A DNA stretch of 23,716 nt from IMG/VR virus record IMGVR_UViG_3300043468_000930, positions 1 to 23,716 of that record; one strand, written 5' to 3'. Under the pieces are notes generated by a model. That model did not search any database, was not told the DNA's origin, and saw nothing but the letters and a program-made list of their open reading frames with translations. The position numbers and the translations under genes were made by a program. Within the stretch, counting starts at the first letter, position 1, and every line of letters starts with the position of its first letter. The DNA comes from a virus. Of the stretch, positions 6,661-23,716 are shown piece by piece.

Positions 6661-6891
6661 TCAGTCCACTCGCTTAATTGCTTCGCGTAGCGTTTTTATT
6701 TGCTGCTTTAGCACTTGTTTTTCTGACGAATCTTCAATTGCGTTTGCAATAAAAGCTTCAGCAATCATAATTGCATGAGCTATTGCGTGCTCGTTTATGT
6801 CTACGTTGCAACGCGACATTTCCGCCAATGTTTCATTCATGAAACGTTCGTAAAACTTATCTTCAAACTCGTCGTCGCGTTCTTCACTCAT
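6661..6891 (-). CDS. Small acidic hypothetical protein, possibly truncated by a frame change
   Basis: I start it at ATG 6891 (MSEERDDEF), nine bases after a clear AAGGAG. A frame from 6993 would overlap the upstream gene by about 100 bases. The product is 76 aa, acidic and helical, with an Ala/Ile-rich middle (EHAIAHAIMIAEAFIANAIE). Near its end, the run of five A on the minus strand (6697-6693) is followed, in the +1 frame, by about 39 further open codons of protein-like sequence ending at TAG 6579. That stop lies 10 bases before the next gene. The natural C-terminus may therefore be longer, with one base differing in the A-run. Confidence 0.7.
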   Translation of the reverse strand: MSEERDDEFEDKFYERFMNETLAEMSRCNVDINEHAIAHAIMIAEAFIANAIEDSSEKQVLKQQIKTLREAIKRVD

Positions 6892-7207
6892 CGCATTCAT
6901 CTCCTTCATCATCATCATACAAAAATGCCTTTCGCTCCTGCCGGATCTGCTCCTGCCAATCAGGGCCAAGTAGCTCTTCACAGCACGCCGCAATCCGCTC
7001 GATGCAACCGAACATCACCCACGGCATGTTTGCAGTCGCCGCGAGTTCTGCCGTTCGTGGAAGCTGCGTAATAAACCGCACTAGTCGCCGCTTGGCTTTT
7101 TCTTGTGCCGGTAGCGTTGCTTCCCATTCCATATGCTCAAGCATCTTGGTTATGTGCAGATTCAAGTCCTTGTCGTCTTGCTCGCTGAACTCATTGTCTC
7201 TCATCAT
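6884..7207 (-). CDS. Hypothetical protein with acidic C-terminus
   Basis: The 107-aa protein has a polar N-terminus, a middle rich in Ala, Leu and Cys (WVMFGCIERIAACCEELLGP), and an acidic tail ending DDDEGDECDE. AAGGA lies just upstream; the ATG at 7204 is slightly better spaced from it than 7207. It overlaps the next gene by eight bases. No family is recognised. The paired cysteines (CC at about residues 74-75) could be structural. Confidence 0.75.
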   Translation of the reverse strand: MMRDNEFSEQDDKDLNLHITKMLEHMEWEATLPAQEKAKRRLVRFITQLPRTAELAATANMPWVMFGCIERIAACCEELLGPDWQEQIRQERKAFLYDDDEGDECDE

Positions 7208-7214
7208 TCATTCC

Positions 7215-7508
7215 TTATCGATAATGTGCCGACCAATAAACTTTTCCACTGCGACCAATCGCATACGCTCTGGCTACGAGCCGATACTTGCGCGTTGTGC
7301 AGTGGTTCGGCCTGGCTACCGATGTACTCGATCCAACACCTGCAAACCGGCAGCCCGGCGCGATGCCCAGAAAATGGCCAACTCGTTCTCGGCTCGCCTG
7401 TAACTGCGCCTCGCGCTTCGCAAACGCAAACGCCTGGCTGTCACTGTTGACTTCTTGCGCTGCGGCGGCTACGGCAAGCAGTAGCCAAAAAATCAAAACC
7501 TTAGCCAT
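7215..7508 (-). CDS. Small secreted protein of unknown function
   Basis: The 97-aa protein starts with a signal peptide (MAKVLIFWLLLAVAAAAQ; probable cleavage after AAA). The mature part has two cysteines at about 53 and 70, and the pattern ERVGHFLG, GVGSSTS, then RAYAIGRSGKVYW near the end. From memory, similar short secreted proteins with an H-F, a Cys pair and a closing G-R-x-G-x-x-Y occur in Planctomycetes and associated phages, sometimes near CAP-domain genes; I cannot verify this. It overlaps the replication gene stop by eight bases. Being exported yet placed in the early block, it may alter the host surface, for example in superinfection exclusion. Function is unproven. Confidence 0.75.
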   Translation of the reverse strand: MAKVLIFWLLLAVAAAAQEVNSDSQAFAFAKREAQLQASRERVGHFLGIAPGCRFAGVGSSTSVARPNHCTTRKYRLVARAYAIGRSGKVYWSAHYR

Positions 7509-8322
7509 TAGTAGCTCCTAAATTTGCTGTGACTCGTTCGTGCATCTTTTGGAAATCCTCGAAAAACGTATCGGGCTTATCCTTGCCCTCGGGTTCCTGT
7601 AGACCCTGCCAACCCTTGCGTATGGTGTATTCCATGGCCGCTATCGAGCGATCCATGCCCCAATCGGCCATCTGCTTGAGTTGCTGCTGGGCGCTGGTGG
7701 GTGTAATCGGCTTCTTGATTTCCTGCCGATGGGCAATCCAGGTCGCCCACGCTCGGTAGAAATCCTGGGGGTTGCCGATCTTTAGGGAGTCGGGAATGTC
7801 TGCAAGATTAAATTCATAAGCCGGCTTCCTGCTGCGTTTCCCCCTTGGGGGTAAGGGGGTATTATCCTTAGTAGTAACCGAATCAGAATCAGAAACAGAA
7901 TCAGAAACCGTAACCCCAGCGTTTTGCTTCTCGTTTGCTAGACCGTTTGCTACTGCGTTTGCTTGACGTTTGCTACCGCCTTTGCTTCCACTTTGCTTGC
8001 GACATTCGCTAATTTCTTTTAGTCGCACCAACCTTCTGGAGTATAACACCCCATTTTGGTCCCTACTTAACACCCCCTTTTGTACTAATTCCTCGATAGC
8101 GTCAATTTTTTGCTGCAATTCGCCGCCACTAATTGCGTTTGCAATTTCTTCGTTAGTTCTAGGCTCACCGTTAGGCCAAACTAAACACCCCTGCTCTTTT
8201 GCTTCAAACATGTAGCAAAGCAAATCGACTAGCAAACCTCTAGCAAAAATCGAGCAAAACCGTAGCTCGGGATCTTTTAGCCAGTCGCCCGTGAAAAACC
8301 AAAACCCTGGAGATTTGTTCAT
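7501..8322 (-). CDS. Replication-initiator-like protein
   Basis: I start the protein at ATG 8322 (MNKSPGFWFFTGDWLKDPEL), giving 273 aa, because an intrinsic terminator occupies 8338-8378 and the K-S-P-x-F-x-F start is typical of phage replication proteins of this type. The frame is open back to 8409, but those 29 codons overlap the terminator. The N-terminal 110 residues look like a winged-helix domain of phage replisome organisers (TNEEIANAISG...IEELVQKGVLSRD). Residues about 115-170 are low-complexity (Ser, Asn, Lys, Asp). The C-terminal 90 residues are a helical domain. Embedded AGCAAA arrays and hexamer repeats suggest the replication origin lies within this gene, as in lambda O. The protein would bind the repeats and recruit a host helicase. 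Confidence 0.75.
   Translation of the reverse strand: MNKSPGFWFFTGDWLKDPELRFCSIFARGLLVDLLCYMFEAKEQGCLVWPNGEPRTNEEIANAISGGELQQKIDAIEELVQKGVLSRDQNGVLYSRRLVRLKEISECRKQSGSKGGSKRQANAVANGLANEKQNAGVTVSDSVSDSDSVTTKDNTPLPPRGKRSRKPAYEFNLADIPDSLKIGNPQDFYRAWATWIAHRQEIKKPITPTSAQQQLKQMADWGMDRSIAAMEYTIRKGWQGLQEPEGKDKPDTFFEDFQKMHERVTANLGATNG
7881..7910. repeat. Tandem AATCAG-type hexamers
   Basis: Five hexamers run head to tail on the plus strand: AATCAG, AATCAG, AAACAG, AATCAG, AAACCG. They are A-rich and lie beside the first AGCAAA array, in the position of an unwinding element. In the protein they encode a Ser-Asp-Val linker, so they may instead be a simple coding repeat. Confidence 0.7.
7923..7997 (-). 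repeat. Iteron-like array 1: seven AGCAAA copies
   Basis: On the plus strand TTTGCT begins at 7923, 7934, 7946, 7958, 7969, 7981 and 7992, so spacings are 11, 12, 12, 11, 12 and 11. On the minus strand the copies are AGCAAA, four of them followed by C and three of these by CG. The copies fall in all three codon phases of the gene (AGC-AAA, A-GCA-AA, AG-CAA-A). This argues for selection on DNA rather than on a repeated peptide. The near helical-turn spacing would place bound protein on one face of the DNA. Confidence 0.8.
8214..8258 (+). repeat. Iteron-like array 2: five AGCAAA copies in the opposite orientation
   Basis: On the plus strand AGCAAA begins at 8214, 8219, 8231, 8242 and 8253. The last four are spaced 12, 11 and 11, the same period as array 1 but inverted. 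The copies again occur in more than one codon phase of the replication gene. About 216 bp separate the two arrays; one isolated TTTGCT lies at 8198 and another at 8109. Confidence 0.78.
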
Positions 8323-8337
8323 ATTCCATATTCCAAC
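8320..8337 (-). promoter_or_regulatory. Paired GGA motifs at the replication-gene start (candidate CsrA site)
   Basis: Between the terminator U-run and the ATG at 8322 the minus strand reads GTTGGAATATGGA then ATATG. GGA occurs at 8334-8332 and 8327-8325; the second is ATGGA, fitting the ANGGA core bound by CsrA. The first GGA, nine bases from the ATG, is also the only likely ribosome-binding element. A CsrA-type dimer covering both would block translation. Binding is inferred. Confidence 0.45.
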
Positions 8338-8378
8338 AAAAAAACCGACCAAATGAGATAGTAGGCTCACTTGATCGG
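8338..8378 (-). terminator. Strong Rho-independent terminator after csrA
   Basis: On the minus strand a 13-bp stem (CCGATCAAGTGAG with CTCATTTGGTCGG; 11 Watson-Crick pairs and two G-U pairs) closes an 8-base loop (8365-8358) and is followed by seven T (8344-8338). This is a textbook intrinsic terminator. It lies between csrA and the replication gene, 15 bases before the latter's ATG, with no obvious promoter between. It may act as an attenuator controlling replication-gene expression. Confidence 0.9.
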
Positions 8379-8418
8379 TTTCGAGCGGTTGCCCGCGCTG
8401 TTGTTTCATAAGCCGCTA

Positions 8419-8628
8419 CTATTCGGCGTTATCCATTGTATCGCCGGCCTGTGGCCGATCAAGCAGTTCCTCCCGTATCACCTTGACCTCTGGCGAGGCG
8501 ATCACCCCCAGCCAAACGCGGTTGCCGTCAATCTTGGTGACCTCTACCGATACTGCGCCGATCCATATCTTTTCGCCAAGGCGGCGACCTAAAATTAAAC
8601 GTCCTGTCGATCCATGCTTCCTTGCCAT
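8419..8628 (-). CDS. csrA: CsrA/RsmA-family RNA-binding regulator
   Basis: The 69-aa protein aligns by eye with CsrA over nearly its full length: RLILGRRLGEKIWIG at residues 10-24, KIDGNRVWLGV at 32-42 and SPEVKVIREEL at 45-55. The RNA-contact residues L4 and R44 of E. coli CsrA correspond to L13 and R52. It carries a nine-residue N-terminal extension, which is unusual because the family normally starts at MLIL. CsrA dimers bind GGA motifs in leaders and block or alter translation and RNA stability. A strong AGGAGG lies 10 bases before its ATG, overlapping the RecT-like gene stop. A terminator follows the gene. Phage CsrA could rewire host metabolism or time phage gene expression; targets are inferred. 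Confidence 0.93.
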   Translation of the reverse strand: MARKHGSTGRLILGRRLGEKIWIGAVSVEVTKIDGNRVWLGVIASPEVKVIREELLDRPQAGDTMDNAE

Positions 8629-8632
8629 TGCT

Positions 8633-12571: not shown

Positions 12572-13384
12572 CTATGGCATACCTGTTAGGATTCGTCGTC
12601 GTCGTGCGCCACTTGGAAACTGGTAAAACGTGTTGCGGTGCGACTCTTGGCGTAGGCCGATGCCTGGGCGACTTGCGAGGAGTTTTATTTCGGGTTCGGT
12701 AAGGACGCGTGAATAAATGCGAACATCATCAATCTGTCCAATGAATGCTTCATTAGTACTGGAATTACCTAACCATCTCCCTATCGAAAACGGCTGTGTG
12801 GTAAACACCATCGAAGAAGTTAAGCTAAGAGTATTAGCTTGCACTCCGTTCAAAAAAATCCTTATTGTTATTCCGTCATAAGTACCGCAAACATGATACC
12901 ACTGATTTAGAGCAGAGGCCGAAACGGTTTCTAAGAGGTGATAGCCGCCGTCTCCTCCGGATGGAGTGCCAACCGCAAAAGAAAAGCGACTATTTACAGA
13001 TAAATTATGATATTGCAAACCATAAGAAACATAAGGCGCAGCGCTACCGTGGAACTTGCTACAAATTTCTCGTCCTGCAGCAGTTCCGGCGCTTGTCGGC
13101 CTAGCCCACGCCGCTAAGGTCACCGCTGTGCTCGGCACTGTCAATTGATTTGCTGTTGAAGCGACTTGCACTGATTCGTTAGTGCTAGAAACAAAATCCA
13201 ACGCCCGCCCATACTGCGATGAAACCCAATCATCCGCTGACATATTAACGAGGCTTCCGTGGTTATTGAAACCACTCACATCGGGCAACATATTTCCGCC
13301 ACCACCATTCGGTAGACTCGGACACCACGCACCGACGAGGCCTTGGCGAAGATTGGCGAACGCATTGCTTCCGTTGTAGTACAT
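12572..13384 (-). CDS. LamG/concanavalin-like lectin domain protein (receptor-binding candidate)
   Basis: The 270-aa protein opens with LRQGLVGAWCPSLPNGGG and has the LamG-type pattern: LPDVSGFNNHGSLVNM, GRALDFVSS, VTLAAWARPTSAG, LNQWYHVCGTYDGITIRIFL-N-G, and FIGQIDDVRIYSRVLTEPEI-K. This jelly-roll fold binds carbohydrates. Located among tail genes just before the fibre gene, it probably recognises a host surface polysaccharide. The C-terminal 35 residues are basic (HRNTFYQFPSGARRRRILTG). Its base composition looks more A/T-rich than its neighbours in the middle of the domain, which may reflect acquisition by exchange; this is a visual impression. Confidence 0.85.
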   Translation of the reverse strand: MYYNGSNAFANLRQGLVGAWCPSLPNGGGGNMLPDVSGFNNHGSLVNMSADDWVSSQYGRALDFVSSTNESVQVASTANQLTVPSTAVTLAAWARPTSAGTAAGREICSKFHGSAAPYVSYGLQYHNLSVNSRFSFAVGTPSGGDGGYHLLETVSASALNQWYHVCGTYDGITIRIFLNGVQANTLSLTSSMVFTTQPFSIGRWLGNSSTNEAFIGQIDDVRIYSRVLTEPEIKLLASRPGIGLRQESHRNTFYQFPSGARRRRILTGMP

Positions 13385-20098: not shown

Positions 20099-20281
20099 TC
20101 ACTTCCTGCGCGCTCGGAGTCGCGGAAATAGACGTTGCAAAAATGGCTTCCTTGCCACCACTGCTTGCCGGCTGTTGGTTGTGGGCTGCACCGATTCCAT
20201 TACGGTCGCCGCCGGCAAACAATTTCCTTTAGTGCAAACTGGTTCCTGCAATAGCGCTGCGGCTAAAAATAGTTCAATCAT
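20099..20281 (-). CDS. 60-aa secreted or membrane peptide with basic C-terminus
   Basis: It starts at ATG 20281, overlapping the peptidase stop as ATGA. A short hydrophobic N-terminus (MIELFLAAALLQ) looks like a signal sequence, followed by CTKGNC (two cysteines four residues apart) and a strongly basic tail (FLQRLFPRLRARRK). The basic amphipathic end could bind membranes or nucleic acid. Its position between the cysteine peptidase and the membrane protein suggests a lysis or envelope role. No family is recognised. Confidence 0.65.
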   Translation of the reverse strand: MIELFLAAALLQEPVCTKGNCLPAATVMESVQPTTNSRQAVVARKPFLQRLFPRLRARRK

Positions 20282-21117
20282 TGAATCACGGACTCCTTGA
20301 TAAAATCAACGCTACGCGGCCTTACTTCGCTCATATCGCTTAGGCCGACAAAATACGTGAATCGGTGCTGAAGCATCTGCCGCACTGCATTTGGCGTGAC
20401 GTAGGCCCAGCCATCCATGCCCCAGCGCTTGGACCATGAATTGTGGAGCAGATAGTAGTAGCCCTGGTCGGTCGATTTGCCCACTGCGGCATCCGGCACG
20501 TACCCACCGATAACGACTGCGTGACCACCACCGCCTGGCGCAAACCGGCTGATAATTCCTTGGCTGCTGGGTGTCATTGCACTACCCCAGGCAATGCCAA
20601 TGTTCACCAGTCCTGCGCCACTAGCCAAAAATGTTTTTACATCGGGTTCCTGCTCAATCCAGCTTGCACTTCTGATTTTATAAGGTGCAGCGGCGGACCA
20701 TAAATTGTTTGGTATTGCATTATATCCCCCGTACGGATAAACGACTGGTCTCGGGTACGGGTATTGCGCCTCGGGGCAAATGCCAAACTCTTTTGCAAGC
20801 CGAGCGCCTCCCTGTAGTGTTGATCCCGAGTCACCCATAATGCCTGACATTTTTTGGCTGCCGAGATACGCAAATAATCGGCTTAGCTGCAAATACTGGC
20901 CCTGCGTAGCGACGTAGTGACACCATTCAAGACAAGTCGATAGCGAGTGTCCTTGGCAACTACCCATGCTGCCCTGGTCCTCTGTGACAACAATTGGCCG
21001 CGGGTCAATGCGCTCGGGTTCGTCAAAATCGCCGCTTTTCAGCGCCATAGGTACGCACTCGCCCTGCAACTGCTCGCGGTCCTCGAGGTCAATTCGGTAG
21101 CCGTAGTTTTGGTTCAC
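20278..21117 (-). CDS. Papain-family (C1) cysteine peptidase
   Basis: The 279-aa protein starts at GTG 21117, overlapping the lipoprotein stop as GTGA. It has a complete papain triad: Q48 and C54 in DQGSMGSCQGHS, H199 in GGGGHAVVIGGY, and N226 in YLLHNSWSKRWGMDGWAYV. A conserved-looking STLQGGARLAKEFGICPE lies between. There is no long inhibitory prodomain and no signal peptide, so it would be made active in the cytoplasm, or be a virion protein. C1 peptidases cut proteins, not glycan. In this location it could act as an envelope-degrading lysis enzyme for a host with a protein-rich wall, or process virion or host proteins. Confidence 0.9.
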   Translation of the reverse strand: MNQNYGYRIDLEDREQLQGECVPMALKSGDFDEPERIDPRPIVVTEDQGSMGSCQGHSLSTCLEWCHYVATQGQYLQLSRLFAYLGSQKMSGIMGDSGSTLQGGARLAKEFGICPEAQYPYPRPVVYPYGGYNAIPNNLWSAAAPYKIRSASWIEQEPDVKTFLASGAGLVNIGIAWGSAMTPSSQGIISRFAPGGGGHAVVIGGYVPDAAVGKSTDQGYYYLLHNSWSKRWGMDGWAYVTPNAVRQMLQHRFTYFVGLSDMSEVRPRSVDFIKESVIQ

Positions 21118-22574: not shown

Positions 22575-23716
22575 TTATGCTTCGCCCTTGCTCTTGACCC
22601 CTGCGCGATATTCCATCATGGCCACACCAAAATCGTGATAGCCCATCATGGAAATGCCAAGCAAATCAAAATCGGCGTCGGCTAGTTCCACGGTCGGGGT
22701 TTGCACGCCATTGAGAAATACAACCTGAATCGTTGCCAGTTCGTTTGGATCGGCAAGCAGATACCAAATTTTGCTGCCGTAGCCTGTGTACAAACTGTTG
22801 CTCAAATACGGCGTTGACACTGGGATAAACCGATTCGCAAAAACGTTCGCGCTGGGTACTCGCTCGGTCGTTGCTGCGCCGCCGGTGTTATTGTTTGTCG
22901 AAACAAATAATTCACGCGCGACACTATCCAGTTCCGGTGGTACAAGCAAATACCGAGGCATGATCCCCAACGGTTCACCGTTCGGGTCCGTTTGCTTCAT
23001 GAACTTTTCGACCCCTGCTTGCAAACCCGCGGAAGATAAATTGGTGGATGCGCCAGTAATGTAGTTGTTGTTGCCGGCTGCAAAAAACGTTGAGTTGTCC
23101 ATAAACTCGGTCCAAAACACCTTATTGAGCCGCGTTGCTGCACCTCGGCCCAGTCGCTGGCGGACGCGATCCATTGCGCCCATGTCGTCGTTAATAATGT
23201 CGCGGCGGTCAATGCCCAGAAACTTTGCGTAGGTATCGGCCTGGTTGGTGTATTCGGTTTCGCCGAGCGTACCATGCTTAATGCGTTCGCCGCGGCCCAG
23301 TAGTTCGTAGTCAAGGCCACCGACTAGGCTGTACGATTTCATTTGCTTGAAGTCGGATACTGGCGAAATCAGCGAAATCGACCGCCAAGCAGAGTCCACG
23401 GCGTTGAACGCATCGGCGATCATTTTGTTGGCAACGTTGCTGAGAATACCGCCAATGTCATACGTTGACACACCGCTGGCGGCTTCCACTGGGGCAAACG
23501 CGGCGCGGAGTAAACCGCGTACATCTTTGTTGCTTTCACCAGTCCAGCCGTTGCGCCGTGCGCAAATGCGCAGCAGTTCCGTCACGCTCAAACCGCGCTT
23601 CCATTCGCTGCTCGCGGCTTCAAGGATTTCCGGCTTATAGTGGGCTTCAGTATCGAACGTCCCGCCCATTCCGAGCGCTAATGCAGCCTCGATCACCTTG
23701 GCCGATGGCAACTGGC
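22575..23716 (-). CDS. Major capsid protein part of the protease-capsid fusion (C-terminal part)
   Basis: This is the continuation of the frame that enters from position 1 and ends with TAA at 22575. About 380 residues are present, typical for an HK97-fold shell protein. It most resembles the Mu gpT-like major head subunit group: the segments YAKFLGIDRRDIINDDMGA and RLGRGAATRLNKVFW, and the C-terminal MMGYHDFGVAMMEYRAG, fit that family. The TTG near 23711 that could serve as a start is only a Leu codon of the longer frame (Q-L-P-S-A-K). The protein should build the icosahedral shell after protease cleavage removes the N-terminal domains. The head-tail connector gene follows at 22573, one base beyond the stop. 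Confidence 0.9.
   Translation of the reverse strand, partial: QLPSAKVIEAALALGMGGTFDTEAHYKPEILEAASSEWKRGLSVTELLRICARRNGWTGESNKDVRGLLRAAFAPVEAASGVSTYDIGGILSNVANKMIADAFNAVDSAWRSISLISPVSDFKQMKSYSLVGGLDYELLGRGERIKHGTLGETEYTNQADTYAKFLGIDRRDIINDDMGAMDRVRQRLGRGAATRLNKVFWTEFMDNSTFFAAGNNNYITGASTNLSSAGLQAGVEKFMKQTDPNGEPLGIMPRYLLVPPELDSVARELFVSTNNNTGGAATTERVPSANVFANRFIPVSTPYLSNSLYTGYGSKIWYLLADPNELATIQVVFLNGVQTPTVELADADFDLLGISMMGYHDFGVAMMEYRAGVKSKGEA
23517..23716. repeat. Right copy of the contig-end direct repeat
   Basis: This is the second copy of bases 1-200, with 198 of 200 identical. Joining position 23516 to position 1 restores one uninterrupted capsid reading frame and gives a unit genome of about 23,516 bp. 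I cannot tell from sequence alone whether the real ends are cohesive, headful-permuted or direct terminal repeats. Confidence 0.93.

Follow-up and report, generated by a model that had tools for sequence, protein, structure and literature searches.

The stretch of DNA analysed here, called the window, is the whole of the 23,716-base virus record IMGVR_UViG_3300043468_000930 from an uncultured phage, and its main genes all lie on the minus strand. The two ends of the record (1-200 and 23517-23716) agree in 198 of 200 bases, so that a circular or circularly permuted genome is probable; for the overlap with its two mismatches, population variation is the alternative reading. One of the genes encodes a replication initiator, and within it lie two opposed arrays of the hexamer AGCAAA, together with a tract of a different hexamer and a short G/C-run element:

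7501-8409, minus strand: replication initiator gene, O-like or replisome organizer by PHROG profiles, longest open reading frame 302 aa
8214-8258, plus strand: array 2, five AGCAAA copies starting at 8214, 8219, 8231, 8242 and 8253, which read TTTGCT on the coding strand
8020-8289, minus strand: predicted winged-helix DNA-binding domain, residues ~41-130 (AlphaFold), containing array 2
7923-7997, minus strand: array 1, seven AGCAAA copies on the coding strand with a period of 11-12 bp, in the linker-coding region
7873-7914, minus strand: hexamer tract, strict (GWTTCK)5 at 7879-7908 with flanks GTTACG and GTTACT, of low duplex stability
7840-7859, no strand assigned: C5-TT-G5 hairpin (7840-7851) and a further G5/C5 run, adjoining the tract

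The initiator matches the PHROG profiles phrog_678 'replication initiation O-like' (E 3.3e-13) and phrog_13246 'replisome organizer' (E 5.2e-12). A Pfam search gave no family at E 0.01, and therefore also no RepA_N domain (PF06970), and neither Pfam nor PHROG gave an AAA+ match. The start codon is probably M30 (8322), because the homology of the relatives begins only at about residue 30. From this start it is about 64-108 bp to array 2, which falls within the part that codes for the DNA-binding domain. Genes for RecE-like, RecT-like and RusA-like proteins are found nearby, and a search for a helicase loader (P/DnaC-like) among the short neighbours at 7215-7508, 6884-7207 and 6661-6993 gave no informative PHROG match, an absence that carries little weight. 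Directly upstream of the initiator, a 69-aa open reading frame (8420-8629, minus strand) matches CsrA (PF02599, E 7.9e-12) and represents a phage-borne post-transcriptional regulator adjoining the replication gene. Elsewhere in the record, a papain-family cysteine protease (20278-21117, minus strand; PF00112, E 4.6e-12) is encoded among the late genes, and the product of 12572-13384 (minus strand) has a concanavalin-like lectin domain (Laminin_G_3, E 9e-28) and is likely a host-binding or tail-associated protein.

For the initiator, AlphaFold predicts a winged-helix domain at the N-terminus and a helical domain at the C-terminus, joined by a disordered linker (mean pLDDT 71; residues 41-130 mostly 84-95, block pLDDT 71-95), and the codons of this linker contain array 1. 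The best rows of a VIA-align comparison are the N-terminal domains of staphylococcal plasmid initiators (4pql, Z 7.8; 4pt7, Z 7.5; 5kbj, Z 7.4), the top rows having 79-87 residues aligned and scoring only slightly above other winged helices. In Foldseek the best row, a DnaD N-terminal domain, was not significant (E 0.17 or worse), and a sequence search of solved structures gave no match. The match of the predicted fold is middling (Z under 8), and a fold by itself shows no function.

All twelve hexamer positions reported by a preceding sequence-only reading of this DNA are exact to the base. Array 1 points towards the hexamer tract and array 2 away from it, the two being separated by about 190-200 bp. 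The whole record has 46 copies of AGCAAA, against 20 +/- 4.6 in shuffles (maximum 33), and the copies outside the arrays are scattered. In the initiator gene, AGCAAA occurs 10 times on the coding strand where 2.35 +/- 1.33 copies are expected if the protein is kept and codons are shuffled among synonymous positions, and none of 20,000 such shuffles reaches 10 (maximum 8). TTTGCT occurs five times, against 0.56 expected under the same null (P 5e-5). Codons resampled according to their usage in the genome give a concordant result. The count against shuffled codons that had been proposed as a check thus places the hexamers far above synonymous expectation.

Close relatives of the initiator are encoded by 38 IMG/VR loci, and both arrays are carried by 31 non-redundant relatives, which together with the window form a set of 32 sequences. 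By their codon pattern, judged by eye, the sequences fall into group A (L005-L013, L015-L019), group B (L014, L020-L038) and group C (the window, L001, L003, L004). If codons are drawn from clade usage and AACAAA/TTTGTT are also counted as sites, array 2 has 4-5 sites in 32/32 sequences, compared with about 0.3-1.0 expected, and array 1 has 5-10 sites, compared with 1.0-2.5. Although array 1 varies in copy number and peptide, 161 of 167 intervals between its copies over the relatives measure 11 or 12 bp, and the copies fall in all three codon phases (88/67/44), which bears out the earlier claim that no repeated peptide explains them. Array 2 is found at the same place in all close relatives with steps of 11, 11 and 12 bp, and in groups A and C a fifth, overlapping copy follows 5 bp further on. 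Between groups, the excess of codon identity is 0.58 in the array-2 codons and only 0.05 in 84 other codons (Mann-Whitney P 8.7e-8), which makes array 2 the top 15-codon window; across the groups its Gly is always GGT, its Ala always GCT, and two Leu are always TTG. The hexamers therefore do not drift at synonymous sites in related phages.

The hexamer itself has changed in one clade. In group A, array 1 consists mostly of AACAAA (40 A and 16 G at the variable position), and two sites of array 2 are TTTGTT, which is the same change (20 A, 30 G), whereas groups B and C together have 0 A and 143 G in array 1 and 2 A and 91 G in array 2. Such a shared change suggests that both arrays have one reader. 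It is a single evolutionary event that would fit RNA pairing equally, yet it links the two arrays. Further away, four relatives at about 34% identity (L080-L083) do not have array 2 in the domain-coding part; instead, their linker carries TTTGC copies on the 5' side and GCAAA copies on the 3' side, the two kinds being partly interleaved, directly before the tract. As the polarity is kept in these four, the order of inverted sites, direct sites and tract is the conserved feature, to which this phage group adds the separation of ~190 bp. Beyond these, a comparison of the family alignment with 84,980 bacterial and archaeal genomes gave no relative, a second search for distant relatives gave no further ones, and named phage and plasmid records hold remote relatives only; in the three remote relatives examined (L040, L041, L203), the tract is absent and a comparable iteron array was not found.

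The A-rich hexamer tandem described earlier is present and can be refined: read on the coding strand, it is (GWTTCK)5 at 7879-7908, bordered on either side by degenerate units. In the relatives it recurs as (GWTTCK)5-7 and directly follows array 1 in the 3' direction of the coding strand. Its Asp codon is GAT without exception (85 of 85, compared with 119 of 229 elsewhere in the domain), its Val codon GTT in 107 of 108 cases (77 of 142 elsewhere), and its Ser codon TCG or TCT in 163 of 169, and Val and Asp interchange freely while the codons stay fixed. To judge from these codons, the constraint on the tract acts on the DNA. In duplex stability, the tract ranks among the lowest 3.2% of the locus for 17 of 18 group-B sequences and among the lowest 10% for 12 of the 14 from groups A and C; when 50-bp stretches of low stability were picked from the record, 7859-7908 came sixth. 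The tract is thus probably a DNA unwinding element. Unstable DNA between the arrays (8010-8109) was considered as a candidate for this role too and was rejected, having no counterpart in the relatives.

Matches to (GWTTCK)5 outside the family are nearly pure microsatellites with 1.3 distinct units, compared with 3.0 in the family. The mixed 24-mer GTTTCKGATTCKGTTTCKGATTCK matched 25 viral DNA stretches, 21 of which belong to this initiator family, and many of its matches in bacterial genomes are acidic or serine-rich proteins without a replication role, so that an origin cannot be deduced from the tract by itself. Beside the tract, the C5-TT-G5 sequence described earlier as a hairpin is indeed present, but its stability is not clearly above that of shuffles (z -1.25 and -1.66). 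The region recurs as C-run, C-run and G-run in clades A and C and is absent in clade B, and it may belong to the origin. Just 3' of the tract, L023 and L038 have 7-bp inverted repeats, GACACAC...GTGTGTC and GACACGC...GCGTGTC, a compensated pair that takes the place of the C-run hairpin of the window.

Taken at the level of sequence comparison, these data show selection on the DNA sequence of both arrays and of the tract, with conserved polarity. The DNA-level structure is real and strongly conserved, and it probably represents a known kind of origin in a new layout. With a probability of roughly three in four, the locus is an embedded theta replication origin in the initiator gene that is bound by the gene's own winged-helix initiator. 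The probable embedded origin of the sequence-only reading is supported as well, since neither the synonymous nulls nor the comparison of synonymous sites in relatives, the two results that could have refuted it, spoke against it. A GC-skew analysis, which had also been proposed, showed no sign change at the site; the skew follows gene orientation and is uninformative here.

Array 1 and the tract could also form the origin on their own, with array 2 serving as an operator: bound there, a short way into its own gene, the initiator would block transcription. Autoregulation by way of inverted iteron copies is established for the initiators of several iteron plasmids, and the position of array 2, some 64-108 bp past the likely start codon and in the opposite orientation to array 1, would suit such a role, as would the joint change of the hexamers in both arrays. 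In the four most distant relatives, however, the inverted sites are in the linker and not near the start, interleaved with direct sites beside the tract, which ties them to the origin and makes a separate operator unlikely.

Still less probable is a long-range stem of about 50 pairs between the two arrays, closing a loop of ~190 nt in mRNA or single-stranded DNA, with selection acting on pairing rather than on protein binding. RNA folding does predict 22-42 array-to-array pairs, above synonymous shuffles in most of ten loci, duplex energies are about -50 kcal/mol, and the G-to-A change in array 1 together with C-to-T in array 2 preserves pairing. Such pairing, however, is expected from any two opposed arrays of one hexamer, and if the spacers are shuffled and the hexamers kept, the complementarity in the 32 sequences is no more than the hexamers alone give (mean z -0.10). 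The paired register also varies between sequences, the copy number ranges from 5 to 10 in array 1 but is steady at 4-5 in array 2, and the helical phasing of 11-12 bp is typical of sites on duplex DNA. That the repeats are a peptide or codon-bias artefact, caused by conserved protein sequence (FCSIFARGLLVDLLC; SDSVSDS) or by slippage, is very improbable, because even though array 2 encodes a strongly conserved peptide and GWTTCK-type hexamer microsatellites are found in many unrelated genes, the synonymous nulls, the freezing of codons between clades, the three codon phases and the mixed units of the tract all stand against it.

If the locus is an origin, the N-terminal winged-helix domain of the initiator would bind the AGCAAA hexamers of both arrays, and as the sites are about one helical turn apart, protomers would come to lie side by side and form two oppositely oriented nucleoprotein arrays. 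Strain from the complex assembled on array 1 would then open the adjacent (GWTTCK)n tract, which would serve as unwinding element and possibly as a repeated register for single-strand binding, and the C-terminal domain could then recruit the host helicase or primase. Looping or filament growth may contribute, and replication would follow the theta mode. Binding, opening and loading are proposed here by analogy with the established systems of lambda O, SPP1 gp38 and pSK41 Rep.

Similar tracts are found in other phage initiators. In four unrelated initiators (L094, L121, L129, L160), GWTTCK or its complement lies beside ~11-bp CCGCAACTCG repeats, the initiator profiles in this set being phrog_5810 and phrog_270 (for L094 and L160), and L214 joins the set by DNA similarity. 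In L215 and L218, a tract lies beside AACCAGTGGTTT and CCATATGG repeats, and in L157 (phrog_6251) there is a tract in the initiator, where iterons were not recognised. Named Pseudomonas and Acinetobacter phage initiator genes have related TGATTCC repeats. In the named phages L238-L240 and L249, GWTTCK-like tracts or TGATTCC/NAATCC repeats are found beside unrelated iterons or in the initiator linker. All these cases were picked by search or by eye without a null, and as the same hexamers also turn up in proteins that have no part in replication, they are a lead only; it is possible that GWTTCK-like tracts are an unwinding element shared across unrelated phage initiators. Opposed sites, too, are seen in another initiator gene, jbd68_54 of Pseudomonas phage JBD68 (L242), which has GGGTGCAA iterons, with an inverted TTGCACC after the first and after the last copy. 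A more far-reaching proposal, which must be regarded as doubtful, combines the two arrays, one of them in the codons of the DNA-binding domain, with a (GWTTCK)n tract that is opened and then serves as a sequence-specific single-strand register, and sees in this tract, found on either strand beside unrelated iterons of other phage initiator families, a phage counterpart of the DnaA-trio.

The locus would be a clean natural case of origin information held in the synonymous codons of a conserved protein domain, complemented by a clade in which both arrays have changed. Should the tract turn out to be an unwinding code that is common among phage initiator genes, the origins of many uncultured phages could be read from sequence.

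Among known origins, the one of lambda and the Stx phages lies within gene O and has 4 or 6 iterons, the copy number of which changes the protein (PMC7466680). Like there, the origin proposed here lies inside the initiator gene, the iterons are flanked by an easily opened tract, and their number is variable; moreover, the product matches profiles of O-like initiators, so that the iterons lie inside an O-like gene. The comparison with the lambda origin drawn by the sequence-only reading holds for this location, but not for the type of iteron. The lambda iterons are imperfect inverted repeats of about 19 bp (PMC7466680), and in origins of the lambda type each iteron of ~18-19 bp is bound by a dimer. 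Here, an asymmetric 6-bp core recurs every 11-12 bp, and the informative positions are those of A[GA]CAAA only, which is not palindromic and whose flanks are weak. Also the second, opposed array and the 6-bp periodic tract are unlike lambda. In phage P1, oriL is within repL and its AT-rich part was shown by synonymous substitution (PMC9948254); it resembles the present case as an origin in an initiator gene and differs in having an AT-rich region and no paired iteron arrays.

In SPP1, the replisome organizer gp38 binds the direct repeats of oriL in gene 38, beside an AT-rich unwinding element (PMC6316719), and here the repeats likewise lie inside the initiator gene next to a probable unwinding element. 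The second cluster of SPP1, oriR, is about 13 kb away (PMC6316719), whereas array 2 is only about 200 bp away and inverted. The Rep protein of the staphylococcal RepA_N plasmid pSK41 binds with its winged-helix N-terminal domain to boxes in the linker-coding middle of rep (PMC5703833). Array 1 is placed in the same way, and the predicted fold is closest to such domains (4pql, 4pt7, 5kbj), by a small margin over other winged helices. The four Rep boxes of pSK41, however, are in one place, and the passages used here describe no further array of opposite orientation within the codons of the DNA-binding domain (PMC5703833); unlike RepA_N initiators, the phage protein also has no RepA_N match in Pfam.

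A precedent for the opposition of arrays, which had seemed unfamiliar to the sequence-only reading, is E. coli oriC, so that the arrangement is present here as described and is not without parallel: oriC has two phased arrays of weak DnaA sites in opposite orientation, one of them nearer to the unwinding element (PMC5043065). Both systems have two phased, oppositely oriented arrays of one type of site, but the initiator of oriC is the AAA+ protein DnaA, and oriC lies outside the initiator gene. The purpose of opposed initiator arrays is an open point for oriC and becomes testable in a small phage system. E. coli remains viable without the oriC array that is distant from the unwinding element (PMC5043065), and array 2 may accordingly have a role in regulation or efficiency.
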